A stretch of DNA of 64,000 bases from Methanoculleus chikugoensis (GTDB lineage Archaea > Halobacteriota > Methanomicrobia > Methanomicrobiales > Methanoculleaceae), in NCBI RefSeq assembly GCF_019669965.1, contig NZ_AP019781.1, positions 2,295,092-2,359,091 of the forward strand. The letters are read 5' to 3'. Of this stretch, positions 1 through 13,147 are shown piece by piece (positions within the stretch are counted from its first letter, which is position 1; the number at the start of each line of letters is the position of its first letter). Made by a program: the position numbers and the translations under genes. The notes below the pieces were generated by a model. That model saw nothing but the letters and a program-made list of their open reading frames with translations, did no database searches and was not told the origin of the DNA.

Positions 1-1280
1 CGACCGGGAAAGACTGGATCGCGGAGTTCCAGCAGCAGGAACGGGAGAGAACCGGGATCAAGTCGCTCAAGGTAGGCTACAACCGGGTCTTTGGGTACTA
101 CATCGAGGTGACGAGACCGAACCTCTCCCTGGTGCCGCCGGAGTACGAGCGGCGGCAGACGACCGCGAACGGCGAACGCTACACGATACCCGACCTCCGG
201 GAGAAGGAGGCGATGATCGCGACCGCCGAAGAGCGACTTACTGCCCTCGAAGCGGAGATCTACGCCGAACTCGTCCGGACGCTCACGGCGGAGGTCGCCG
301 GCCTCCAGGCGACCGCACGGGCGGTGGGGCTCCTCGACGTCTATGCGGCGCTTGCCGAGATCGCCGCCCGCTACGGCTACACCCGCCCGGTGATCGAGGA
401 GAGCGGCCGGATCGTCATCCGCGACGGCCGCCACCCGGTGGTGGAGCGGCACCTCCCGGTCCCGTTCGTCCCGAACGACACGGAACTCGACTCCGCCGGC
501 GACCAGATCATGATCATCACCGGGGCGAACATGGCCGGCAAGTCCACCTACATGCGGGCGGTGGCGCTCTGCTGCATCATGGCCCAGATGGGGAGTTTCG
601 TCCCGGCCCGGCATGCCACCGTCGGGATCGTCGACCGCGTCTTCACCCGGGTCGGGGCGTTCGACGACCTCGCCTCCGGACAGTCCACGTTCATGGTCGA
701 GATGCTGGAACTTGCAAACATCTTAAACAACGCGACGGCGAGAAGCCTCGTCATCCTCGACGAGATCGGGCGGGGGACGAGCACGCTCGATGGGTGTTCG
801 ATTGCCCGGGCGGTGGTGGAGTTCCTGCACGGGAAGGCGGTCGCGGGGCCGAGGACGCTCTTTGCGACCCACTTCCACGACCTGGTCGATCTCGAAGGAT
901 CGCTCAAACGGGTGAAGAACTTCCACTTTGCGGTGAAGGATACCGGAACCGACGTTGTCTTCCTCCGTAAGATCATCCCCGGCGCGACCGACCGGAGCTA
1001 CGGCGTCCACGTCGCACACCTTGCCGGGATCCCGAAGAAGGTGACCGACCGGGCGATGGAACTCCTGAAGGAGGCGTCGACCCGGGAGCTCCCGGCCGGG
1101 GTGCGGGCTCCCCGCTACACCCAGATGCTCCTCGTCGACCCCGGCGAGGGGGTCGTGGAGGAGAACCCGGCGGTCCGAGAACTCAAAACCATGAATCCCA
1201 ATGAGATGACTCCTATCGAGGCGCTGAACACCCTCTGCAGGCTCCAGAGGCTCGCGAACGGGGAGAGGAGTGAGCGATGA
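1..1280 (+). CDS. mutS: DNA mismatch repair protein MutS (5' end outside window)
   Basis: C-terminal half of the mismatch-recognition ATPase; the reading frame is open from base 3, so the start lies upstream of the window. The visible part contains the clamp/lever region and the ABC-type ATPase: Walker A (GANMAGKST, near base 520-545), Walker B with the ILDEIGRGTS signature (near 755-785) and the ATHFHDL switch histidine. Family knowledge: MutS homodimers bind mispairs and, with ATP, slide and recruit MutL. The stop overlaps the mutL start by 4 bases (ATGA), so both are translated from one message. Bacterial-type MutS in an archaeon implies ancient lateral transfer, but base composition matches its neighbours. 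Confidence 0.97.
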   Translation, partial: TGKDWIAEFQQQERERTGIKSLKVGYNRVFGYYIEVTRPNLSLVPPEYERRQTTANGERYTIPDLREKEAMIATAEERLTALEAEIYAELVRTLTAEVAGLQATARAVGLLDVYAALAEIAARYGYTRPVIEESGRIVIRDGRHPVVERHLPVPFVPNDTELDSAGDQIMIITGANMAGKSTYMRAVALCCIMAQMGSFVPARHATVGIVDRVFTRVGAFDDLASGQSTFMVEMLELANILNNATARSLVILDEIGRGTSTLDGCSIARAVVEFLHGKAVAGPRTLFATHFHDLVDLEGSLKRVKNFHFAVKDTGTDVVFLRKIIPGATDRSYGVHVAHLAGIPKKVTDRAMELLKEASTRELPAGVRAPRYTQMLLVDPGEGVVEENPAVRELKTMNPNEMTPIEALNTLCRLQRLANGERSER

Positions 1281-3034
1281 CGAAGATCCGCGTCCTCGAC
1301 CCCGACACCGTGAACCAGATCGCCGCCGGCGAGGTCGTGGAGCGGCCGGCATCGGTGGTGAAGGAACTCCTGGAGAACGCGATCGACGCGGGGTCGACGA
1401 GCATCCTCCTCGACGTCTCCTCGGACATGGCGGGGATCACGAAGATCCGGGTGACCGACAACGGGGAGGGCATGAGCGGGGAGGAGGCGGCCCTCGCGTT
1501 TCACCCCCACGCAACGAGCAAGATCCGGGAGATCGCCGACCTCTCCGCCATCCGCACCCTCGGGTTCCGGGGGGAGGCGCTCGCGAGCATCGCCGCCGTC
1601 GCGGAGGTGACCCTGGTCACCCGTCCACGGGGAGGGGGAGCGCTCGCCGGGACGCGGATCGTCGTCAGGGGCGGCGAGGTTGTGGAGGAAAGCGAGGTGG
1701 GAGCACCGGAGGGGACGACAGTCGCGGTGGAACGCCTTTTCTACAACACCCCCGCCCGTCGGAAGTTCCTCAAAAGCAGGAACACCGAGCTCGCCCACGT
1801 CTACGCGGTCGCAGAAAGTCTCGCCCTTGCCCACGGCGAGGTCGCCTTCCGGGTGGTGCAGAACGGCAAGGAGCGGATGGCGACCCAGCGATCGGGAGGG
1901 GGCTTAACCACCATCGCGGGGCTTTACGGCGCCGAACTCGCCAGGTCGCTCGTCCCGGTCGAGGGAAGGCTCCCGTTCCTCCGTATCGGCGGCTACATCT
2001 CCCGGCCGTCGGAGAGCCGGGGGAACCCCTCGCAGATCTCCGTCAGCATCAACGGGAGAAGCATCTCCTCCCGGCAGATCGCCGCCGCCGTCCGGGAGGG
2101 CTACGGCACCCTCCTCCCGAAAGACCGCTACCCGGTGGCATTCCTCGAACTCTCGATCGACACCGGTCTCGTGGACGTCAACGTCCACCCGACCAAACGG
2201 GAGGTCCGCCTCTCCCGGGAGCGGGAGATCACGGGGGCGATTGCGGCCGCAGTGGAAGAGGCACTTACAAAGCACGACCTCACACGCGAAACCCCGGACG
2301 AGCCGGTTCAGCAGCAGATCGTACCCGGGGGGGCCGAACCGGTGCCGTCACCGCCGCCGGTCGCCGAGTCCGGGGCATCCTACACGGCCGGCCACCGAAG
2401 CTTCACCCTCTCTGACAGGCAGCTCCGCCGGACGGAGACGGAAGGCGGAGAGAACCTCCTCCCCGCGATGGAGCCGATCGGACAGGTGGCCGCGACCTAC
2501 ATCGTGGCGGAGGGGAGCGACGGCACCCTCTACCTCATCGACCAGCATGCGGCCCACGAGCGGATCCTCTACGACCAGGTCTCGGAGCAGCGCGACAGGG
2601 CGGCCGGGTCGCAGGAACTGATCACGCCCGTCGTCGTCTCGCTCCCCCCGAAGGAGTCCGCTGCGCTCCGTGATGCGATCCCTCTCCTCGCAGACGGCGG
2701 GTTCGTCGTGGAGGAGTTCGGACGGGACACCTTCGCCGTCCGTGCAGTGCCGGCCGCCCTCGGCGCGGCCGAAGACCCCGGGACGATCCGGGAGGCGATC
2801 GCCGACCTCCTCGCCGACGAGTCACGAACCGCCCCTGACCGGCGTGAGGCGGTCACCTGCATCGTCGCCTGCCGTGGGGCGGTGAAGGCCGGCGCCATCC
2901 TCACGCCCGAGCAGCAGAAGCGTCTCCTCATGCAACTCGCCCGGACGAAGACCCCCTGGGCATGCCCCCACGGGAGGCCGACGGTCGTGGCGTTCGACAG
3001 ACGCAAACTCGACGGGATGTTCAGGCGGGGATGA
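1277..3034 (+). CDS. mutL: DNA mismatch repair protein MutL, endonuclease type
   Basis: 585 aa. N-terminal GHKL ATPase: ELLENAIDAG (Mg/ATP-binding Glu and Asn), DNGEGM and GFRGEAL lid. C-terminal dimerisation/nuclease domain: DQHAAHE at residues 422-428, ACRG about 535 and CPHGRP near the C-terminus, which are metal-site motifs of nicking MutL proteins from organisms without MutH. The last acid of the DQHA(X)2E(X)4E motif is Asp instead of Glu (residue 433). Known role: activated by MutS to nick the new strand. Start fixed by ATGA overlap with mutS. A T-rich tract follows about 40 bases after the stop. Confidence 0.97.
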   Translation: MTKIRVLDPDTVNQIAAGEVVERPASVVKELLENAIDAGSTSILLDVSSDMAGITKIRVTDNGEGMSGEEAALAFHPHATSKIREIADLSAIRTLGFRGEALASIAAVAEVTLVTRPRGGGALAGTRIVVRGGEVVEESEVGAPEGTTVAVERLFYNTPARRKFLKSRNTELAHVYAVAESLALAHGEVAFRVVQNGKERMATQRSGGGLTTIAGLYGAELARSLVPVEGRLPFLRIGGYISRPSESRGNPSQISVSINGRSISSRQIAAAVREGYGTLLPKDRYPVAFLELSIDTGLVDVNVHPTKREVRLSREREITGAIAAAVEEALTKHDLTRETPDEPVQQQIVPGGAEPVPSPPPVAESGASYTAGHRSFTLSDRQLRRTETEGGENLLPAMEPIGQVAATYIVAEGSDGTLYLIDQHAAHERILYDQVSEQRDRAAGSQELITPVVVSLPPKESAALRDAIPLLADGGFVVEEFGRDTFAVRAVPAALGAAEDPGTIREAIADLLADESRTAPDRREAVTCIVACRGAVKAGAILTPEQQKRLLMQLARTKTPWACPHGRPTVVAFDRRKLDGMFRRG

Positions 3035-3509
3035 AATCACCCGGGCGCCGCGATCTGAAATACCGGCGATAAACCCTTTTTTTAAAAATCAACGGGAAAA
3101 AGACGCCCCAAAAAACAAAATAGCGTATCATAATGGATTTATCCCGGGAGATCAGTATGATTATACGTCGCAGCGGACACCCGCTGCAGACGAAACGGAT
3201 TGAACTATACGATACCAGTCCAGCAGATTCGCCTCCGTATGAGAGAGGATAACTGGTACGGGCCCAGATACACGACCGGACTGTCGAATAGCAGATCGGT
3301 ATTCTCGCCCGCGGCCCTCCTCTCCGGTCACCCGCGAGATCCTGCTGGGAAAGAACAGGTGACGGGGAAACACCCCTAAACGTCCTGCCGGAGATGATTG
3401 TCTCTCGACAACACCATCTCCCCGCCACCTTTTTTTCTGATGATCCCGAACTCACGGTCAGGGCTGTTACTCTCGGTGCTTCCGGATAGGGGTGCGGGGC
3501 AAAAAAAAG
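3035..3509. other. Convergent intergenic region, no gene seen
   Basis: About 475 bases between the ends of mutL and the PsbP-like gene. It is more AT-rich than the coding DNA. T7 tract at about 3077-3083 (for mutL) and A8 tract at 3501-3508 (T8 on the minus strand, just after the minus gene's stop) are likely archaeal terminators. Between them I found no frame with coding character and no tRNA-like fold. Confidence 0.6.
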
Positions 3510-4109
3510 TTAGAGGAAACGGAACGACTCCGCCGTCGGAGCCGCGTCGACGTTGTAAACATCGTACTCGGGGGGGAAGACCGTGTGCATGACCGAGTAG
3601 ATGACGCCGTCGTTGACGCCGTAACGGATGACGAAGGTATACCGGTCCTCATCGACGATGGGGACGGAGAAGACCGACTCGTACGCCGGAACGCCGTCAA
3701 GGGAGATCTCCTCCGTCGAGACCCATTCGGCACCGATATCGGTCTTGAGATTCTCGGCGTAGGTCGCGTTCAGCGCTTCGAGAACGTTCTCGACGTCCCC
3801 TTGAGTCGAAAGCGGGTTCGTGTTCACGCGAACCTCCTCGTGCTTATCCGGCGAGGAGAACCAGACGCTCTCGCCGGATTCGGTGTAGAACCACCCCTCC
3901 GGGCAGGTGACGGCATACCCGTAGGTGGCGTTGACGTAGGTGCCGTTCCCGGGAACGGGTGCCGGGGTCGGGGTCGGAGCCGGGGTAGGCGGTTGGGTCG
4001 GGCCGGGGTCGGGCGGTTGCGGCGCGGAGAGCCCCGGCAGCAGAACCGCCAGGACAACGACGAGGGCAACCACGAAGACCCCGGCGATCAGCAGTCTCTC
4101 TGTTCTCAT
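3510..4109 (-). CDS. Membrane-anchored PsbP-like protein
   Basis: 199 aa. One N-terminal hydrophobic segment (about residues 8-28), then a Pro/Thr-rich linker (about 29-54) and a globular domain starting with YVNATYGYAVTCPEGW. The pattern 'Y.N..YG..v..P.gW' and the following beta-rich region resemble PsbP/PsbP-like domains that occur in many methanogen surface proteins. Inferred to be anchored in the cytoplasmic membrane with the domain outside. No catalytic residues are evident and the function is unknown. A T8 tract follows the stop directly. Confidence 0.75.
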   Translation of the reverse strand: MRTERLLIAGVFVVALVVVLAVLLPGLSAPQPPDPGPTQPPTPAPTPTPAPVPGNGTYVNATYGYAVTCPEGWFYTESGESVWFSSPDKHEEVRVNTNPLSTQGDVENVLEALNATYAENLKTDIGAEWVSTEEISLDGVPAYESVFSVPIVDEDRYTFVIRYGVNDGVIYSVMHTVFPPEYDVYNVDAAPTAESFRFL

Positions 4110-4151
4110 ACTATCCGGTACGTAGCCCGGGAGAAGATAAATATCCTTCAG

Positions 4152-5012
4152 TCAGGCTGCCGGGTCGGGCGCAGGGGCACGAAGATCGGCGAGCAGGTCG
4201 TCGACAGTATTCACGTATTTCACCCGGATGCCGAGGTTCTCCTCGATATACTCTTTTGAATCCACAATGGGCGGCCATTGCCGTGATATTCGCAGTCCGC
4301 CGAACGATCGGGTTCCCTCATGGTAATCGAACACTTGATTGTTCTCGTCGGAGAGGATGAGGAGCGTCTTCCCGCCGCGGCGAGCAGCCTCGGCCTTCTC
4401 GAGGATCCCGCCGACCGGGCCGATCCTCCCATCCTCGTCGATGGTTCCCGTCACGGTCACGCTCTCGTTGAGCGGGACATCCTCCAGCACCGAGAGGAGG
4501 AGCGCGGCCATCAGCGCCCCCGCACTGGGGCCGTCGATCTCGGAGATATCCTCCGGCCCCTGGATGCTGAAGATGATGTCGCTCTTCGTAAGATCCGCAC
4601 GGGACCGGTTGGCGGCGACGACGACCGCGAGGTTCGCGGCGTCCTGAAAGGCTATCCCCATCAGAGGCGTCGTCTGGACGAGCACCCTCCCTCTCCCGGG
4701 CACGACCTCGACCGAGACGTTCACCATCGCCCCCTCTTCGGTCATCTCCTCGTAGAAGAACGGGCCGCCCCGGTCGACCTCGATCTTCTGGAGGATGACC
4801 GGCGCCTGCATCGAGGCGGCGCTTCCGTTTTCGACCGCCTCCACGGGGAGGAGGGGGGCGACGGTCGCGGTCGGGAGGGGTTCGGCCTCCCCGGGTCTGG
4901 AGAGCGCCGGGGAGAGGTCGTCCGACGGCATGAGAACAACGGCCAGGAGGAAGACATTCGCAACAAGCGACAGAACAAGCAGAATTGTCAGGGTCCTCTC
5001 CCGTATGCGCAT
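4152..5012 (-). CDS. Membrane-anchored Lon-type (S16) serine protease
   Basis: 286 aa from the chosen ATG. Residues about 6-30 form one membrane anchor. The C-terminal S16 domain carries the catalytic Ser in DGPSAGALMAALLLS and the catalytic Lys in GGILEKAEAARRGG, the Ser-Lys dyad of Lon. There is no AAA+ domain, so this is not a complete Lon; an ATP-independent membrane-associated S16 protease is inferred. A TATA-like element (AAATTATATAT on the minus strand, about 5039-5049) sits 30-35 bases upstream, which rules out the longer frame to 5177 as coding and suggests a very short leader. An in-frame ATG at 5030 is the alternative start. Confidence 0.85.
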   Translation of the reverse strand: MRIRERTLTILLVLSLVANVFLLAVVLMPSDDLSPALSRPGEAEPLPTATVAPLLPVEAVENGSAASMQAPVILQKIEVDRGGPFFYEEMTEEGAMVNVSVEVVPGRGRVLVQTTPLMGIAFQDAANLAVVVAANRSRADLTKSDIIFSIQGPEDISEIDGPSAGALMAALLLSVLEDVPLNESVTVTGTIDEDGRIGPVGGILEKAEAARRGGKTLLILSDENNQVFDYHEGTRSFGGLRISRQWPPIVDSKEYIEENLGIRVKYVNTVDDLLADLRAPAPDPAA

Positions 5013-5055
5013 ATGCTGCCCGAATACCATGCATCCGGATATATAATTTTCTGGT

Positions 5056-5101
5056 GAGCGACGTTCCGAAGGAACGGAGCTCGAGCACCCCAAGGTGCGA
5101 G
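5056..5101. repeat. Hairpin repeat unit, copy 1
   Basis: Contains GTTCC-gaa-GGAAC followed by GCACC-ccaa-GGTGC, two short stems joined by an AGCTCGA word. An inverted copy lies at 60824-60870: the same two hairpins in the same relative order when read on the minus strand, differing at few positions and by one base in the first loop. Confidence 0.75.
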
Positions 5102-5227
5102 TTGCGGCGGCCCGAAGAACGACTTTCCCGCCCAGGTCCCATGCAGGCCCGGGGCAGGAAAAAAACGGGGGCAACACCGGGCGGAGACGTTTAGCGTTTC
5201 GCCTCGAGATCTCTGCAATCCGGCCGA

Positions 5228-5247
5228 GTTAATCCACATCAATTAAC
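5228..5247. promoter_or_regulatory. Candidate operator palindrome before uptake operon
   Basis: Perfect inverted repeat GTTAAT-N8-ATTAAC located 117 bases before the fecB-like start. It is AT-rich in a GC-rich region and symmetrical, as expected for a dimeric regulator site. Which regulator binds is unknown; a metal-responsive repressor would fit the operon, but this is inference. Confidence 0.4.
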
Positions 5248-5363
5248 CCAAGCCCAAAAGAGAACCGTTTTTTACCTCCCGAAGAGATTTCTCACCAGTT
5301 CGGCGGGACCGCTCCCGATGGTGGTCTGTTCCCGCTGTATACCGGATTACAGGAGTAACAATA

Positions 5364-6470
5364 ATGAAAACCAGTTACATGCTCTGCACACTCATCATCG
5401 CAGCAGGCATACTCTGCTGCGGTTGCACGACAACAACAACGCTGGAAGATCCGGCCGCGACACGAACGATCACCGACATGGAGGGAAACCGGATCACGCT
5501 TCCTGCAGAGGGGGCGACGTTCGGTGTCTTCGGAGGCCCCATCAGCCAGGTGCCCTACCTCCTCGGAGCGAACGCCAGTGTCACTGCAGTCACGAAAGGA
5601 CCGCAGATGATGGAGATGATGCAGGAGATGGACCCGGGCATCATCGATAAACCGGCGCCGCGGACGACAAACGGCAACGTGAACATCGAAGAGCTCCTGG
5701 TCGCGAACCCCGACTGCGTCATCGCCTTCGATGTCGACGGGAAGATCGTGGAATCCCAAACCGATATCCCGGTCATCTGCCTCTCCGGGACAATGAGCGA
5801 CGGGTTCGATGAGATGCGGCAGGAGATCACCTTCATGGGCGAGGTCTTCCAGAACCCCGATAGGGCACGGGCCTACATCGATTACCTTGATGGAACCCTC
5901 GCGTTCCTCCGTGAACGCACTGCCGATATCCCCGAAGACGAACGCGTCACCATCTTCTTGGGCGAGGGCGTAAGCCATCTCCAGACGCTTGGAGGCGACA
6001 CGTTCTTTACCGAGTGGACCGACGCTGCGGGATGCAGAAACGCTGTCGCCGGCATCGAGACCACGCAGGGACAGCAGGAGGGAATGCACACGGGTATCAA
6101 CGAGATCTCGATGGAGCAGGTCCTTGCCGTCGACCCCGACATCATCATCATCGATACCGGCAGCCCCGCCGACCTTGAAAACGACAGCCGCTGGAAAGAA
6201 CTCAGTGCCGTCAAAGACGGCCGTGTCTACAAGCAACCTACCGGACTCTTCCTCTGGAGCCGGCCGTCCGCCGAGTCCGCCGTCCTCTACCCGCTCTGGC
6301 TTTCCTACGCTGCCTACCCCAACCGCTTCGAGGACGTTCCGCTCACCGACCGGGTGAAGGACTTCTACACTGAGATATACGGCTTCCCCATCACCGATGC
6401 GCAGGCGCAGAAAGTCATCGACGGCACCTACGGCAGCGTGACGTTCGGCCAGGTGAAGCAGTCCGGATGA
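5364..6470 (+). CDS. FecB/BtuF-type substrate-binding lipoprotein
   Basis: 368 aa. Signal peptide with Cys-rich lipobox (residues about 8-21, GILCCGC) followed by a Thr-rich linker. Then a cluster A-2 (TroA/FecB superfamily) fold: RTITDMEGNRITLP opening strand, ANPDCVIAF and VDPDIIIID lobe strands, and a long interdomain helix (about 155-185). Family members bind iron-siderophores, heme, cobalamin or other chelates outside the membrane. Substrate cannot be read from sequence. First gene of a five-gene operon; RBS GGAG 8 bases upstream. The permease start overlaps its stop (ATGA). Confidence 0.92.
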   Translation: MKTSYMLCTLIIAAGILCCGCTTTTTLEDPAATRTITDMEGNRITLPAEGATFGVFGGPISQVPYLLGANASVTAVTKGPQMMEMMQEMDPGIIDKPAPRTTNGNVNIEELLVANPDCVIAFDVDGKIVESQTDIPVICLSGTMSDGFDEMRQEITFMGEVFQNPDRARAYIDYLDGTLAFLRERTADIPEDERVTIFLGEGVSHLQTLGGDTFFTEWTDAAGCRNAVAGIETTQGQQEGMHTGINEISMEQVLAVDPDIIIIDTGSPADLENDSRWKELSAVKDGRVYKQPTGLFLWSRPSAESAVLYPLWLSYAAYPNRFEDVPLTDRVKDFYTEIYGFPITDAQAQKVIDGTYGSVTFGQVKQSG

Positions 6471-7585
6471 GACCAGAGCCGACAGGCACCCGGGATGCGC
6501 ACGGGGGGGGAGGAGGGGGAGCCCCGGCGACCGGAACGGCAGCTGCAACGCCGGGACAGGCACTCAGCAGGAGTTGGGGTGAGCAGCATCCCGGCACCAT
6601 CCTGGTGCTCCTCCTCGGCGTGCTCGGGGTTGCAGCGTTCGTCGCCCTGATGGCCGGCCGGTACATGCTCCCGCCTGAGACGGTTATAGCGGTGATCCTG
6701 AGCTCGGTCTTCCCAATCGAGGCGACCTGGGGAGCAACAGCGGCCTCCGCCGTCGTCAACGTCCGCATCCCCCGGATCATCGCCGGCCTCCTCGTCGGAG
6801 CCGGGCTTGCCGTCAGCGGGGCCTCGTTCCAGGGGATGTTCAGGAACCCCCTGGTCTCCTCGCAGATCCTCGGCGTGGCCTCCGGCGCGGGCTTCGGAGC
6901 GGCGATCGGCATCCTCCTCTCGGACAGCCTCGTCCTCGTCCAGATCCTTTCGTTCGTCTTCGGCCTGCTCGCCGTGGGGATGGCCTACGGGCTCAGCCGG
7001 GTCAGGAGCACGACGCCGATCCTGATGCTCGTCCTCTCGGGCATCGTGATCGCATCGCTCTTCTCGGCCCTCACCTCGATGGTGAAGTACGTGGCCGACC
7101 CGATGAACAAGATGCCGGCGATTGTCTTCTGGCTGCTCGGGTCGCTCAACCACGTCTCGGCGCCGGACCTGATGGTCCTCGGCCCGATCGTCGCAGTCTC
7201 GATAGGAGGGCTGCTTGCTGTCCGGTGGCGAATCAACGTCCTCACGATGGGCGACGAGGAGGCACGGGCGCTCGGGGTGAACACCGAGCGCTTAAAGGTC
7301 GTCATCATCCTGCTCTCGACGGTGATCACCGCTGCTGCGGTCTGCATGAGCGGGATCATCGGGTGGATCGGGCTTGTCATCCCGCATATGGGACGGATGC
7401 TCGTCGGACCGGACAACCGCTACCTTTTGCCGGTCTCGGTCCTTCTTGGTGGATCGTTCCTGATCGTCGTCGACACCATCGCAAGGACGGCAGCCCCTGC
7501 CGAGATCCCGATCGGCATCCTGACGGCGGTCATCGGGGCGCCGATATTTGCGATACTCCTCCGGCGGAACAACCCGGGGTGGTGA
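6467..7585 (+). CDS. FecCD-family ABC transporter permease
   Basis: 372 aa, about ten membrane segments. Family landmarks: RIPRIIAGLLVGAGLAVSG, the GASFQGMFRNPLVSSQILG signature of the FecCD/BtuC family, and the GDEEARALGV coupling helix that contacts the ATPase. Moves the chelate delivered by the upstream lipoprotein across the membrane as a homodimer. The N-terminus has an unusual extension of about 45 residues rich in Gly, Ala and Thr, encoded partly by a G8 tract at 6503-6510; a later start inside this stretch cannot be excluded. Confidence 0.93.
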   Translation: MRPEPTGTRDAHGGGGGGAPATGTAAATPGQALSRSWGEQHPGTILVLLLGVLGVAAFVALMAGRYMLPPETVIAVILSSVFPIEATWGATAASAVVNVRIPRIIAGLLVGAGLAVSGASFQGMFRNPLVSSQILGVASGAGFGAAIGILLSDSLVLVQILSFVFGLLAVGMAYGLSRVRSTTPILMLVLSGIVIASLFSALTSMVKYVADPMNKMPAIVFWLLGSLNHVSAPDLMVLGPIVAVSIGGLLAVRWRINVLTMGDEEARALGVNTERLKVVIILLSTVITAAAVCMSGIIGWIGLVIPHMGRMLVGPDNRYLLPVSVLLGGSFLIVVDTIARTAAPAEIPIGILTAVIGAPIFAILLRRNNPGW

Positions 7586-7587
7586 GC

Positions 7588-8385
7588 ATGGGGAACCGCA
7601 TCAGCGTAGAGGATATATCGTTCAACTATCCGGGCGGAGCCGCCGTTTTTACGGGCATCACGCTCGCCGTGGAAGAAGGATGCGTATACTCGCTCCTTGG
7701 TCCGAACGGCACGGGGAAGTCCACGCTTCTCAAGTGCATGGCCGGGCTCATCTCCCCCTCGCAGGGCCGCGTTCTTCTTGACGGCCGCGACATCGCAGGG
7801 ATGCAGCCGCACGAGATCGCCCGGCAGATCGGGTTCGTTCCCCAGACGCAGGTCTCGCCGTTTCCGTTCATGGTCAGGGACATCGTCCTGATGGGCAGGG
7901 CGTCCCACCTCGGCCCGTTTGCAACCCCGTCGGCAGAGGACGAAGAGATTGCTGCCGACGCTCTCGACCGGGTCGGCATCTCTCGCCTCGCCGAGAGGCC
8001 ATGCACAGGGATCAGCGGCGGCGAGTGGCAACTTGTCCTGATCGCGCGGGCGATTGCACAGCGTCCGGGGATTCTCCTCCTCGACGAGCCGACGTCCCAC
8101 CTGGACCTCGGCAATCAGGTGCGGGTGCTCAACGTCATCGGGGGACTCGCAGAGGACGGAATGACCATTGTCGTTGCGACCCATTTCCCCGATCACGCGC
8201 TTCTGACGTCGAACCGGGTCGCAATCCTGAAAGATCAAAGAATCCTTGCCATAGGGTGCCCCGAGGAGGTTATCGGCGAGGATACGATGCGTCGTGCCTA
8301 CGGCACGGACGTTCATATCGTACACCTCGGCGATCCGATCAACCGGCGGATCTGCGTACCTGTGGCAGGAAAGGTGATACCATGA
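7588..8385 (+). CDS. FecE/BtuD-type ABC transporter ATP-binding protein
   Basis: 265 aa. Walker A GPNGTGKST (residues 38-46), Q-loop in FVPQTQ, signature ISGGEWQL, Walker B ILLLDEPTSHLD and switch His in VATHFPDH. Energises the FecCD-type permease. The ATG chosen lies 2 bases after the permease stop; the frame is open further upstream but only as a shadow of the permease gene. Its stop overlaps the methyltransferase start (ATGA), so the next gene is part of the same message. Confidence 0.94.
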   Translation: MGNRISVEDISFNYPGGAAVFTGITLAVEEGCVYSLLGPNGTGKSTLLKCMAGLISPSQGRVLLDGRDIAGMQPHEIARQIGFVPQTQVSPFPFMVRDIVLMGRASHLGPFATPSAEDEEIAADALDRVGISRLAERPCTGISGGEWQLVLIARAIAQRPGILLLDEPTSHLDLGNQVRVLNVIGGLAEDGMTIVVATHFPDHALLTSNRVAILKDQRILAIGCPEEVIGEDTMRRAYGTDVHIVHLGDPINRRICVPVAGKVIP

Positions 8386-9023
8386 CCGAGCAACCACATA
8401 ACCAGTTCACCGGCAGAGGTGCCGGGAGGATGGATGCCATCGCCAAAGGGCCGTTTGCGCCGATATACCCGGTCATCGCCCAGCAGATCCTCGATACCTG
8501 CAGTATTTCCGCAGGCAGATGCATCGATATCGGATGCGGGCCGGGACACCTGGCAATGGCGCTCGCGGCCGCAAGCGACCTTGTTATCGACGCTCTCGAC
8601 TCATCGGCCGATATGCTTGAGATAGCAGAACACAATATCCGGAAGGCCGGGCTCGCCGATCGCGTACACCCGGTCCGCGGCGACGTCAATGACCTGCCCT
8701 ACGACGACGGCTCCGTCGATCTCATCGTGAGCCGCGGCTCGCTCTTCTTCTGGGAGAATCGGGTGCGGGCGTTCTCGGAGATCCGGCGGATTCTCCGGCC
8801 CGGCGGAAGGACGTTTGTTGGCGGAGGATTCGGCACTCCTGCCCTGAAGGCAGCAATTACAGAGAAGATGCGCGAAATTGACCCGGAATGGGAGGCAAAG
8901 GCCGCGGAACGCCTCTCACGGAAGAACAAGGATGCCATCCGCCGGGAACTGGAACAGGCAGGGATAACGGCATACGATATCCACGAGGATGAAGCCGCGT
9001 TCTGGATAATCATGGAGAGGTAA
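8382..9023 (+). CDS. Class I SAM-dependent methyltransferase of the uptake operon
   Basis: 213 aa. Rossmann methyltransferase: motif I IDIGCGPGHLAMAL, acidic motif II IDALDSS, motif IV-like NDLPYDDGSVDLIVSRG and post-motif LRPGGRTFVGGG (UbiE/Tam-like architecture). The substrate is unknown. Four-base overlap with the ATPase gene and 6 bases to the radical-SAM gene make it an integral operon member, so it probably acts on, or on the route of, the imported compound. This is inference from context. Confidence 0.88.
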   Translation: MTEQPHNQFTGRGAGRMDAIAKGPFAPIYPVIAQQILDTCSISAGRCIDIGCGPGHLAMALAAASDLVIDALDSSADMLEIAEHNIRKAGLADRVHPVRGDVNDLPYDDGSVDLIVSRGSLFFWENRVRAFSEIRRILRPGGRTFVGGGFGTPALKAAITEKMREIDPEWEAKAAERLSRKNKDAIRRELEQAGITAYDIHEDEAAFWIIMER

Positions 9024-9029
9024 TAGCGG

Positions 9030-10781
9030 ATGCAGTGCAATATTTGCGAGGTCGGGTGCGATATCCCGCCGGGTGGGAGCGGGAGGTGCCGGATGTACCG
9101 GCATGACGGCACCGGGATCGTCGAACGGTTCCCCGACACCTTCCTCGCCGCATTCCCCGTCGCCATCGAGACGCTGCCGATGCTGCACTTCTTCCCCGGC
9201 GCGAAGTTCCTTCAGGTCTGCACGGTCGGGTGCAACCTCTCGTGCGGCGGGTGCGTCTCGGAGATACTCGTCGGGCACGCCGAATCGCTTGCAGCCTCCG
9301 GGACGGCACTCACGACCGGGGATCTCCTCCGCCTCGCAGCCGATCATGCCTGTACCGGGATCGCCTTCGCGCTGAACGACCCGATCGCCTCTCTCCCGAC
9401 CTTCTGCCGTCTTGCGGAGAGGGCAAGGGAGCAGAGGCTTCTCGTCGGCTGCTCCACGAACGGCTACATGACCGAAGCGTCCGCGCTCTACCTCCGCGAA
9501 CGGATAGACTTCGCGAACGTCGGGCTCAAGGGGTCAACCGATGCGAGTTACCGTGCCTGCGGTGCGAAGAGCGCCGCACCGGCCTACCGCACAATCCGGC
9601 TGCTCCACGAGGGCGGGGTGCACGTCGAGGTCTCGATCGTCTACCGCCGCGGCGGGGAAGAAGAGGTGATGGGGGCAGCACGGATGCTCGCGGCGATCTC
9701 CCCCCATATTCCTCTTCAGGTGATGCGGTTCGTCCCCTTCGGCGATGCGGGGCTCGGCGAGGAGCCGACGATCTACGCGAGCGAAGAACTCTGCGACCGC
9801 CTCCGCAATATCCTCCCCTGGGCCTACCTCTTCAACTCGCCGGGAACAGCGAACTTGACGACCTTCTGCCCGGCATGCAAAAAACCCTGCATCGAACGCG
9901 AGTTCTTCGGGCCGATGGGCGCCCACCTCGCCGGAGAGGCCCGGACAGCCTGTGCGTGCGGGCATGCCCTGCCGGTCCGGGGTGCCGCGAACCCCGAAGT
10001 CTTCTACGAACCGGGTATGATGGGAGGCTACCGGGCGACCAGGGGGCTCGAGATGGTCTGGGCGATCCTCGCCTGCCTCGGTGTAGAGGGGCAGGCGGAC
10101 CTCGCCCGGATCTGGAGCGAGGTGCTCCGGACAGGGATGCTCGGGAAAGAACTGCATGACCGGATGAACAACATCGACGCATACCTTGATCTCGTCATGG
10201 ACTTCGCGCATCGGGCCGGGCGCGAGGAGGCAGGCAGGGAACTCTGCACCTACATCCGGGAGCGGCTGGACTTCGTCCGGGAAAGGGTGGTGGATGCCCC
10301 GCGCCCCCGGGTCTACTACGCGATGGGGCATCCGCTCTTCGCCCTCAACCCCGGCAGGTTCGAGGGGAAACTCGTGGAGGCTGCCGGCGGAACTTACGTC
10401 AACCGGGCGATCGGCCGGGAAGGAAAACCGGGTGTCAGCATACCGCGGGAGGAGTTCATCGCGCTTGCGCCCGAGTATCTCTTCACGTCGGGCTTCCTTA
10501 CCTCCACGGTGGAGGATACTCTCCGATACTGCGCGGAGCACAATCTCGACGTGCCGGCGGCCAGGAACGGGCGGGTCTACGCGATGCACCCCTCCTGGGA
10601 CTTCGGGAGTCCCCGGTGGATCCTCGGCCTGATGACGATCGCAAACGTCCTCCACCCCGACCGGTTCGCCTTCCGGATCGATGAGGAGGCGGACGAGTTC
10701 TACCGCCGGTTCTACGGGGTGCCCTACCGGGCGTCCGCAGCAAACCGCTCGTTCGCCCACCCCGGGACGGAGCGGCGGTAG
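9030..10781 (+). CDS. Radical-SAM protein fused to a partial substrate-binding domain
   Basis: 583 aa, no signal peptide. N-terminal Cys set C3, C6, C10, C20 (CNICEVGC, GRC), resembling the N-terminus of AmrS/PflA-related radical-SAM proteins. Radical-SAM motif C68-x3-C72-x2-C75 (CNLSCGGC), with an additional C64. A third Cys group lies at 280, 283, 287, 308, 310. Residues about 425-565 match the hinge helix and C-terminal lobe of FecB/TroA-type binding proteins (PRVYYAMG, AAGGTYVNRA, SPRWILGLMTIANVLHPDRF). A cytoplasmic enzyme that may bind the imported ligand is inferred. The reaction is unknown. Confidence 0.85.
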   Translation: MQCNICEVGCDIPPGGSGRCRMYRHDGTGIVERFPDTFLAAFPVAIETLPMLHFFPGAKFLQVCTVGCNLSCGGCVSEILVGHAESLAASGTALTTGDLLRLAADHACTGIAFALNDPIASLPTFCRLAERAREQRLLVGCSTNGYMTEASALYLRERIDFANVGLKGSTDASYRACGAKSAAPAYRTIRLLHEGGVHVEVSIVYRRGGEEEVMGAARMLAAISPHIPLQVMRFVPFGDAGLGEEPTIYASEELCDRLRNILPWAYLFNSPGTANLTTFCPACKKPCIEREFFGPMGAHLAGEARTACACGHALPVRGAANPEVFYEPGMMGGYRATRGLEMVWAILACLGVEGQADLARIWSEVLRTGMLGKELHDRMNNIDAYLDLVMDFAHRAGREEAGRELCTYIRERLDFVRERVVDAPRPRVYYAMGHPLFALNPGRFEGKLVEAAGGTYVNRAIGREGKPGVSIPREEFIALAPEYLFTSGFLTSTVEDTLRYCAEHNLDVPAARNGRVYAMHPSWDFGSPRWILGLMTIANVLHPDRFAFRIDEEADEFYRRFYGVPYRASAANRSFAHPGTERR

Positions 10782-10799
10782 CGAGGAGACCGGACTCCC

Positions 10800-11612
10800 T
10801 CACTCCAGCCCTTTGACCGCCTCCATCTCAAGGCGCACCATGGGGACGTGGATGCGGCCGTCGGCCGGGGGGAACCTCTCCACGTATCGGTTCGCCACCC
10901 CTTCGATGAACGTCGGTCGGACGTCTTCGGGCAGCGGCTCCAGGTAGAGGTGCCAGGTGGTCCGGACCCACCCCATGAGGCCCTCAAGCAGATCGAATAT
11001 CATGTCCTTCCCGATCAACTCGACCCGCAGGGGCGTGAGCCCTGCCGCTTCCAGCAGTTCGCGCTCCTCTTCTGGGCCGTAGAAAGCGTAACGGGAGGAC
11101 GGACCGCTGGAGAATCCCCTCCACGGCTCTTCCGCGAGCATCTCGTCCGCGATCTCGAAGAGCGGCGCGGCATTGCCGCTCCCGCCCATCTGGAGGATGA
11201 TCCTCCCTCCCGGCCGGAGAGCGCAAGCGATGCCCTGAAATACCCTGCCGTGGTCAGGAACCCAGTGCAGGGCAGCGTTCGAGAAGACGACATCGAACTC
11301 CTCATCGAACGGCAGATCGAGCATGTCGCCCTCCATGAACCGGAGATTCGGATACCGTTCCGGGGGGAAGCGCTCCCGGGCAAAGGCGATCATATCGCGG
11401 GAGAGATCGAGGCCGAGCGCCGAACCGGAGGGGAGGCAGGCCGCGAGCTCCGCGGTCACCTTCCCCTCCCCGCACCCGAGGTCGAGCACCCGCTCGTCGC
11501 CGGCAAGCGCGAGCTTTTCAATCAGTTCATGTGCCCAGGCCCGCTGGGCGGCGGAGTGGCGGTGGTAGTCATCCGGGTTCCAGGCATGCGTGATGATACT
11601 TCCTCCGTGCAA
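10800..11612 (-). CDS. Class I SAM methyltransferase (Tam/BioC-like)
   Basis: 270 aa. Motif I VLDLGCGEGKVTAEL, then GLDLSRDMIAFARERF, FDVVFSNAALHWV and LRPGGRIILQMGG: the layout of trans-aconitate/malonyl-ACP type methyltransferases (the NAALHW stretch is typical). Substrate unknown. Convergent with the uptake operon, 18 bases away, and not part of it. The start used is the first ATG; an internal alternative is not obvious. Confidence 0.85.
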   Translation of the reverse strand: MHGGSIITHAWNPDDYHRHSAAQRAWAHELIEKLALAGDERVLDLGCGEGKVTAELAACLPSGSALGLDLSRDMIAFARERFPPERYPNLRFMEGDMLDLPFDEEFDVVFSNAALHWVPDHGRVFQGIACALRPGGRIILQMGGSGNAAPLFEIADEMLAEEPWRGFSSGPSSRYAFYGPEEERELLEAAGLTPLRVELIGKDMIFDLLEGLMGWVRTTWHLYLEPLPEDVRPTFIEGVANRYVERFPPADGRIHVPMVRLEMEAVKGLE

Positions 11613-11763
11613 GTTAGCCCGACCGGAACAGCGCTCAGGCTCTCACGGACGAGGTATCGCCGTCACAGAACATCAAGACACCGGCACAGGATCGCAGCGG
11701 ACAAAAACGTCCGGAGGCTCCTTGCGGGGCCGGTCGAAAAAAGGTTGCCGGAGATTCTCCGGG

Positions 11764-13137
11764 TTAATTCTCTCCGCCGAGATTCAGTTTCTTCGTCTTC
11801 CAGGCTCCCTGCCGGTAGAAGAACAGATCGCACAGGAACACCACAACGGTGCCGCAGACCACCGCGTACCAGATGTACTGCAGCGGCAGACCCATCGTAA
11901 CAAAGATCGCAGCAAGACCCACCTGCACGATCAACTGCCCTGCGATCGCCGCGTACATGCCGGGTCTCGTCATCCCCGCACCGTTCATCGCAAATCCCAT
12001 CGTCATCGCCATAGCGATCACGAAGTACGACATCGGGATTATCTGCATAAACAGGATGCCGTTTGAAAGCGACTCGCCCGTCGCGCCGAAGAGCGCCAGG
12101 AGATTCTTCGCATACAACAGATAGAGGATACCCACCATCGCCATGAACGATGCGTTCGCGATCATCGCGATCCTGACCGCTTTCTCCGCTCTCTCCACTT
12201 TTCCCGCTCCCAGGTTCTGCCCGACCATCACCGCGACTCCCGTGCAGAGCCCCATCACGAAGATCAGGCCCAGCATATCCAGACGCTGGCAGATGCCGTA
12301 TGCCGCCACCGCCGCCGTCCCGTACAGCGCAACGATCGCCGTCATCCCCAGGAACGCAAAGCTCCTGACCCCGCTCTGTACCGCCGAGGGTATCGTGATC
12401 TTCACGATGTCCTTGATCAACTGTGGCTCAAGCGTCCACTTCTTCGGGAACCTGACCGGCCTGTTCTTTCTGGACGGCAGATACATCACCCCGATCAGAA
12501 GCAGTACGCCGATCGTACGCGATGTAAGGGACGCATACGCGGATCCGGCTATTCCAAGCGCCGGGAGTCCGCCAAGACCCGTGATCAGCGTCGGGTTCAG
12601 GACAATGTTCACGATATTCACCGCGATCATCACGTACATCGGCGTTCGTGAATCTCCCGTACTCTGAAAGACGGTCGTCAGGATCATCAGCGTGACGAAG
12701 ACGAACATTCCCATCAGCATCGGGGAGAGGAAGCGTGCTCCCACCACTGCGACCTCGCTCTCCGCTCCAAGGAGCAGGAGGAGATCCTGTGACCAGAAGA
12801 TGCCGATGACCATGAGGATCGCCGAGAAGGCGAGTGCCAGATACAGCGAATGCGCGAGGATCACCGGGATGCGCTCAAGCCGCTCCGAACCGTAGGCTCG
12901 CGAGACGAATGCAGCCGTTGCCGTCACGGTCCCGAAGATCACTGTTGTAAGCACCATTATGATGGATATGCTCATCGCTCCGCCAGCGATCGGGACATCG
13001 CCGAGTTTGCCGATGAAATACATATCCACCACCTCCAGGATGCTCGCGAGAAAGTTGCTGATGATGATCGGAAGAGCCACGACCCAGAGACCTTTTCCGA
13101 CCGATCCTTCGGTGAGGAGATTATTGGAATGTTGCAT
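11764..13137 (-). CDS. MATE family efflux protein
   Basis: 457 aa from ATG 13137, 12 predicted membrane segments in two homologous halves. Opens with LLTEGSVGKGLWVVALPIII and VVDMYFIGKLGDVPIAG, typical of MATE transporters, which export cationic compounds or drugs using Na+ or H+ gradients. A TTG codon 6 bases upstream is a less likely start. An AT-rich palindrome overlaps the promoter region at 13148-13160. The methyltransferase 151 bases downstream points the same way, but no operon can be shown. Confidence 0.9.
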   Translation of the reverse strand: MQHSNNLLTEGSVGKGLWVVALPIIISNFLASILEVVDMYFIGKLGDVPIAGGAMSISIIMVLTTVIFGTVTATAAFVSRAYGSERLERIPVILAHSLYLALAFSAILMVIGIFWSQDLLLLLGAESEVAVVGARFLSPMLMGMFVFVTLMILTTVFQSTGDSRTPMYVMIAVNIVNIVLNPTLITGLGGLPALGIAGSAYASLTSRTIGVLLLIGVMYLPSRKNRPVRFPKKWTLEPQLIKDIVKITIPSAVQSGVRSFAFLGMTAIVALYGTAAVAAYGICQRLDMLGLIFVMGLCTGVAVMVGQNLGAGKVERAEKAVRIAMIANASFMAMVGILYLLYAKNLLALFGATGESLSNGILFMQIIPMSYFVIAMAMTMGFAMNGAGMTRPGMYAAIAGQLIVQVGLAAIFVTMGLPLQYIWYAVVCGTVVVFLCDLFFYRQGAWKTKKLNLGGEN

Positions 13138-13147
13138 CGTCAAGGTA

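Follow-up and report, generated by a model that had tools for sequence, protein, structure and literature searches.

A radical-SAM enzyme fused to the hinge helix and C-terminal lobe of a class III substrate-binding protein, encoded with a FecBCD-type importer in Methanoculleus chikugoensis

Introduction

Class III substrate-binding proteins are extracytoplasmic two-lobe clamps. A locus of the methanogen Methanoculleus chikugoensis raises the question of what one half of such a clamp might be doing inside the cell, joined to a radical-SAM enzyme. The locus lies in a stretch of 64,000 nucleotides (contig NZ_AP019781.1, positions 2,295,092 to 2,359,091), referred to here as the window, and was initially annotated as a cytoplasmic radical-SAM enzyme that carries half of a binding-protein fold and might receive the chelate handled by the neighbouring transporter. 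Metal acquisition by methanogens and sulfate reducers is poorly known, and no description of such a fusion or of its operon was found in the openly licensed literature, a result which does not prove its absence. The analysis described below establishes the architecture as real, unusual and conserved, and leaves the functional idea plausible and partly supported.

Results

Domain architecture of the fusion

Features of the locus are collected in Table 1. Pfam searches with the full-length protein returned two matches: Radical_SAM (PF04055) at residues 64–207 (E 1.3e-7, 32.4 bits against a cut-off of 29.5) and Peripla_BP_2 (PF01497) at residues 383–521 (E 1.3e-6, 28.5 bits against a cut-off of 27.5). 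The second match spans only positions 93–233 of the 235 in the profile, corresponding to the hinge helix and C-lobe, and the N-lobe is therefore absent from the fusion; positions 1–92 of PF01497 were without a match in searches with both the full-length protein and the isolated C-terminal part, for the window protein and three relatives. A radical-SAM domain of the PflA/AmmeMemoRadiSam-like type and a linker precede the hinge helix instead, in keeping with the replacement of the N-lobe that had been proposed. When residues 325–583 were searched alone, Peripla_BP_2 was again recovered (E 2.5e-7, Pfam), as were the solved class III binding proteins 4pag, 4hn9, V. cholerae BtuF (5ysc) and MolA (3psa). 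The hinge helix is found at approximately residues 383–420 and the lobe at 427–562, so the range of about 425–565 first given for both covers the lobe alone, the helix sitting upstream. Inspection by eye of the start of the protein (MQCNICEVGCDIPPGG) revealed no export signal or lipoprotein anchor; the N-terminus, MQCNICEVGC, instead carries a conserved Cys motif, as expected for the cytoplasmic enzyme of the initial annotation.

Table 1. Coordinates of the fusion gene, its domains and the accompanying operon in the window
Feature	Position	Strand	Evidence or remark
Palindrome GTTAAT-N8-ATTAAC, possible operator	5228..5247	.	117 bp upstream of first operon gene
Substrate-binding protein, 368 aa, lipoprotein-like N-terminus	5364..6470	+	nearest solved 4ovk, 4pag, MolA 3psa
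FecCD/BtuC-type permease, 372 aa	6467..7585	+	
ABC ATPase, 265 aa; start inferred from MGNRISVED open frame	7588..8385	+	tblastn conservation
Class I SAM-dependent methyltransferase, 213 aa	8382..9023	+	adjoins 33/42 fused copies
Radical-SAM/binding-protein C-lobe fusion, 583 aa	9030..10781	+	single open frame; 64 fused relatives
Residues 1–320: C3/C6/C10/C20, radical-SAM domain with C68/C72/C75, zinc-ribbon-like C280/C283/C308/C310	9030..9989	+	PF04055, TIGR04337 (94.7 bits, below cut-off of 220)
Residues 321–382: helical linker with invariant G332-G333-Y334, where the N-lobe would be	9990..10175	+	fusion alignment, AlphaFold model
Residues 383–565: hinge helix and C-lobe of a class III (FecB/TroA/BtuF) substrate-binding protein	10176..10724	+	PF01497 profile 93–233; fold matches

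Two AlphaFold models were examined. The first drew on 18 sequences in an alignment without any binding-protein rows and reached a mean pLDDT of 72.6, with low confidence at residues 425–525 because the alignment was shallow there; Foldseek searches with this model still retrieved 4hn9, 4pag, 3psa and 2etv, in addition to PflA and NifB. For the second model, C-lobes of the operon binding proteins were added to the alignment, by which it leans towards that fold, a bias that the first model does not share. With a pLDDT of 85.5 and a pTM of 0.85, the second model suggests that the fusion has a defined domain arrangement. Its C-terminal part matched class III binding proteins with E values down to 5e-12 and a TM of approximately 0.5 of the target, which is consistent with half of one binding protein, whereas PflA and NifB were the top fold matches of the N-terminal part, PflA being the best. 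The C-terminal part thus resembles a binding-protein lobe even when no binding-protein rows enter the alignment, and the partial Pfam match, the PDB relatives and the structural matches all bear out the half-fold first proposed.

Conservation and origin of the fusion

A total of 64 distinct full-length fused proteins were collected from Methanomicrobiales, other methanogens and Desulfobacteria, the closest relatives of the window protein being encoded on Methanoculleus contigs (83–87% identity). Matches at E 1e-40 were found in 36 of 295 genomes sampled from the phylum of the window, a few of these matches being radical-SAM-only or partial, and at E 1e-60 in 42 of 150 genomes sampled from its order. 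In the class Desulfobacteria, full-length fusions were present in approximately 20 of 291 genomes. None of 201 Chloroflexota genomes gave a match at E 1e-60, in a sample that held no internal positive control.

The radical-SAM site is intact, as marked by C68, C72 and C75 (CX3CX2C) in 64/64 fusions and by N116 and P118. Three groups of cysteines had originally been singled out as a sign of more than one metal site; C3, C6, C10 and C20, the radical-SAM triad, and C280, C283, C308 and C310 are indeed found in 64/64 fusions, but C64 and C287, which had been counted among them, are not conserved. The same 11 cysteines are invariant in unfused AmmeMemoRadiSam-type relatives, and the groups are therefore an inheritance from these relatives, not a special feature of the fusion. 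Two further cysteines, C177 and C501, are each conserved in 98% of the fusions, the latter located in the lobe, in a column absent from the aligned binding proteins.

In a tree of the radical-SAM part, all fusions were placed in one group (support 99), the sole unfused row within it being a broken copy. An unfused operon enzyme forms the sister group (99), and the two together are separated from the AmmeMemoRadiSam rows (100). In a tree of the lobe, the fused lobes form one clade (100), separate from every operon binding protein, and a recent origin of the lobe from the binding protein encoded beside it is therefore rejected. As each half forms one group in its tree, the phylogenies are most simply explained by a single, old fusion event.

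Several individual genomes are of note. Some Methanoculleus genomes encode two convergent fused genes, one standard and one divergent, the latter approximately 42% identical to the window protein (L058:7669–9297 and 9375–11108); in L059, which also has two, the standard copy is split into two frames. In a Desulfosarcina cetonica draft (L014), frame breaks interrupt the genes for the binding protein, the TonB receptor, the fusion and the methyltransferase alike, which looks like poor sequence quality and not decay. An in-frame TAG in some relatives was considered as a possible pyrrolysine codon; the case checked (G131/L057) proved to be a normal terminal stop near the end of the alignment.

Genomic context

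The fusion is the last gene of a five-gene operon, in the order binding protein, FecCD permease, ATPase, methyltransferase and fusion, with overlaps or short gaps between genes. Context was then counted by hand for 42 fused copies, window included, for which the surroundings (approximately 10 kb each side) had been fetched. The methyltransferase gene was directly adjacent to the fusion in 33 of these, and a FecCD gene lay in the fetched region of 32, from both archaea and Desulfobacteria; it was missing from that region in the other 10, one of which is a short contig. The tie between the half-receptor enzyme and a FecBCD importer that the initial annotation had drawn is thereby borne out. Bacterial operons contain a TonB-dependent receptor gene, which is directly beside the fusion in L114, L116 and L122. 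In three loci of Desulfobacteria (L111–L113), the unfused sister enzyme, a 390-aa protein, the methyltransferase and the fusion are encoded in one gene run. Downstream of the window fusion, the opposite strand (10800–13143) encodes another class I methyltransferase and an efflux pump that was assigned by eye to the MATE type; the pump stays nearby in two relatives (L006 and L007), not in all.

Because the fusion is usually found in one operon with the importer and the methyltransferase, its context suggests that it acts on whatever the importer handles. Clues to that cargo are weak: the solved proteins nearest to the window binding protein (4ovk, 4pag and MolA, which binds molybdate) differ in their ligands, TonB receptors of fused loci show matches to models for heme, B12 and siderophores without distinction, all below cut-off, and the surroundings of 12 bacterial loci yielded no B12 or molybdenum-cofactor riboswitch.

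The palindrome ahead of the operon recurs elsewhere. Three more GTTAAT-N8-ATTAAC places were found in the genome at one mismatch, versus one per strand for a control pattern, and one of these (G000:C1:2142057-2142076; L129, L130) lies in a second FecBCD operon (DUF364/FecCD/ATPase/SBP), between its DUF364 and FecCD genes. The Methanomicrobiales loci L004, L006, L007, L008, L009, L066, L070 and L073 have comparable sites ahead of the operon, mostly one or two mismatches away from the pattern. This recurrence before both FecBCD operons and related operons suggests a shared regulator, for which the palindrome would be a likely operator.

Selection on the fused lobe

Across the fusion alignment the lobe is conserved to the same degree as the radical-SAM domain (mean 0.63 and 0.62, respectively). 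At column 474, which we take to be the permease-docking Glu of BtuF, Glu is found in 35/35 non-redundant operon binding proteins versus 13/30 fusions, the window fusion itself being among those that keep it. In the fusions, conservation is higher in the cleft loops than elsewhere in the lobe (0.68 versus 0.58, p 0.025, a value which is indicative only because the loops were picked from the secondary structure of the model after the column table had been seen), whereas the operon binding proteins show the opposite trend (0.42 versus 0.53 for the remainder). Residues P435, E445, N458 and W530 are fixed in the cleft of the fused lobes and are mostly unlike those of binding proteins; other residues occupy these positions in the operons' own binding proteins, which are a diverse set. 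A docking Glu that has become variable, together with cleft loops that are conserved but altered, argues for a lobe released from permease docking, with its cleft face repurposed under strong selection. High conservation of the cleft could equally reflect packing against the radical-SAM domain.

These observations bear on the proposal that enzyme and transporter share one chelate. The operon supports an association with the importer, but the fused lobe is an old clade with a fixed cleft unlike the diverse binding proteins beside it, and hence does not copy the binding site of the importer; it could instead serve as a lid or an interface.

Discussion

We tentatively favour the reading that the fusion serves a chelate-type (FecBCD) uptake system as its cytosolic radical-SAM enzyme, with the lobe shutting over the radical-SAM site and helping to hold a bulky ligand. 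Held in place by the hinge helix and the short helical linker, the receptor C-lobe would have stopped docking to the permease and would sit over the mouth of the radical-SAM barrel, forming one wall of the substrate pocket. This pocket may accommodate a bulky ligand, either a metal chelate or a compound of tetrapyrrole size, that the operon transporter brings in or recycles; a 5'-deoxyadenosyl-radical reaction would be carried out on it, and the neighbouring methyltransferase would work on the same compound. By opening or remodelling the chelator, we infer, the enzyme would free a metal or cofactor for use in an anaerobe. The heme-uptake operons with HmuW described below offer a precedent. A more specific version, about which we are more doubtful, is that C-lobe and barrel clamp a chelate or tetrapyrrole much as the two lobes of a binding protein do outside the cell, with radical chemistry then opening the ligand so that its metal or cofactor is set free without oxygen. 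Since the cleft residues of the lobe differ from those of the operon binding proteins, which are themselves diverse, the imported compound is not necessarily what the lobe binds. Counting against an uptake enzyme are the 10 of 42 fused copies with no FecCD gene in the fetched region, and the unfused relative of the radical-SAM enzyme, which works in similar operons and has no lobe.

Chelator biosynthesis is the main rival. Here the fusion would help to make a metallophore: the radical-SAM enzyme and methyltransferase, with or without an O-methyltransferase, DUF364 and an extra methyltransferase, would build a secreted chelator that is re-imported by FecBCD/TonB, while the lobe holds the growing product. 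Several loci do contain genes for an O-methyltransferase and for DUF364, a family putatively linked to heavy-metal chelation, between the transporter genes, with further methyltransferases in some, and a role for DUF364 in the synthesis of chelating compounds has been proposed from structure and context (PMC2954201). However, the window operon and many others contain no biosynthetic genes beyond those for the methyltransferase and the fusion, and no exporter was seen as a constant member of the clusters in the fused loci examined; we consider this route rather unlikely.

Next is a purely structural lobe, a docking module that would tie the radical-SAM enzyme to the methyltransferase or transporter and bind no small ligand. 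The relaxed constraint on the docking Glu, the cleft residues unlike those of binding proteins, the invariant GGY of the linker and the unfused sister enzyme that manages without a lobe are all in its favour, yet the strong conservation of the cleft loops, subject to the possibility of packing noted above, makes it unlikely. An activase of the AmmeMemoRadiSam or PflA type, acting on a protein or nucleic acid and encoded near a transporter by coincidence, is improbable: TIGR04337 is the closest family model and PflA the best fold match of the N-terminal part, but the TIGR04337 score is below cut-off, the FecBCD and methyltransferase context recurs across two domains of life, and no AMMECR1 or Memo gene was detected in a Pfam scan of the window neighbours (108 to 12667). 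Finally, a frameshift, assembly join or chance gene fusion, which the initial annotation had itself raised, has a negligible probability, for although broken relatives do occur where genomes are drafts or have decayed (L014, L059, L072), 64 distinct intact fusions in archaea and bacteria, with one clade per half, refute it.

Should the uptake-enzyme reading be correct, receptor lobes would be reusable as catalytic substrate clamps, a cytosolic half having been conserved on a radical enzyme and long kept in two domains of life; an undescribed anaerobic pathway that processes or makes chelators would then also be indicated in methanogens and sulfate reducers.

Comparison with known systems

Among family models, the N-terminal part of the fusion is closest to the AmmeMemoRadiSam radical-SAM enzymes (TIGR04337), with which it shares its length, the N-terminal C-x2-C-x3-C-x9-C, the CX3CX2C motif and a C-terminal CPxC...CxC zinc-ribbon-like pair, all 11 cysteines being invariant across both. 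Against a curated cut-off of 220 bits, however, the window protein scores 94.7 and other fused members 108 and 79, and in contrast to these enzymes the fusion carries a receptor lobe and sits with FecBCD, not with AMMECR1/Memo. The fused clade and its unfused operon sister split off from them with full support.

The sister enzyme itself (L067, L111–L113, L119–L121) is likewise encoded beside FecBCD, in most loci with the same methyltransferase family, and differs in having no receptor lobe; it is followed by a protein of approximately 390 aa, whose family (e.g. L067:9752-10912) has no Pfam, NCBIfam or PDB relative. With class III binding proteins (PF01497: BtuF, FecB, MolA, YiuA and CeuE) the fusion shares the hinge helix and C-lobe in both fold and sequence, but it lacks the N-lobe and signal peptide, does not maintain the docking Glu across its members and conserves other cleft residues.

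Heme-uptake operons combine a TonB receptor, an ABC importer and the radical-SAM enzyme HmuW, which opens imported heme anaerobically (PMC10404700). The anaerobilin synthases ChuW/HutW/HmuW are thus, like the fusion, radical-SAM enzymes encoded with TonB/ABC uptake, and HmuW acts on an imported metal complex (PMC10404700). They are of another radical-SAM type (class C methyltransferase) and have no receptor lobe, and the HutW/ChuW NCBIfam model gave no match to the window fusion. Although the fusion is not of that family, HmuW/ChuW is its nearest functional parallel.
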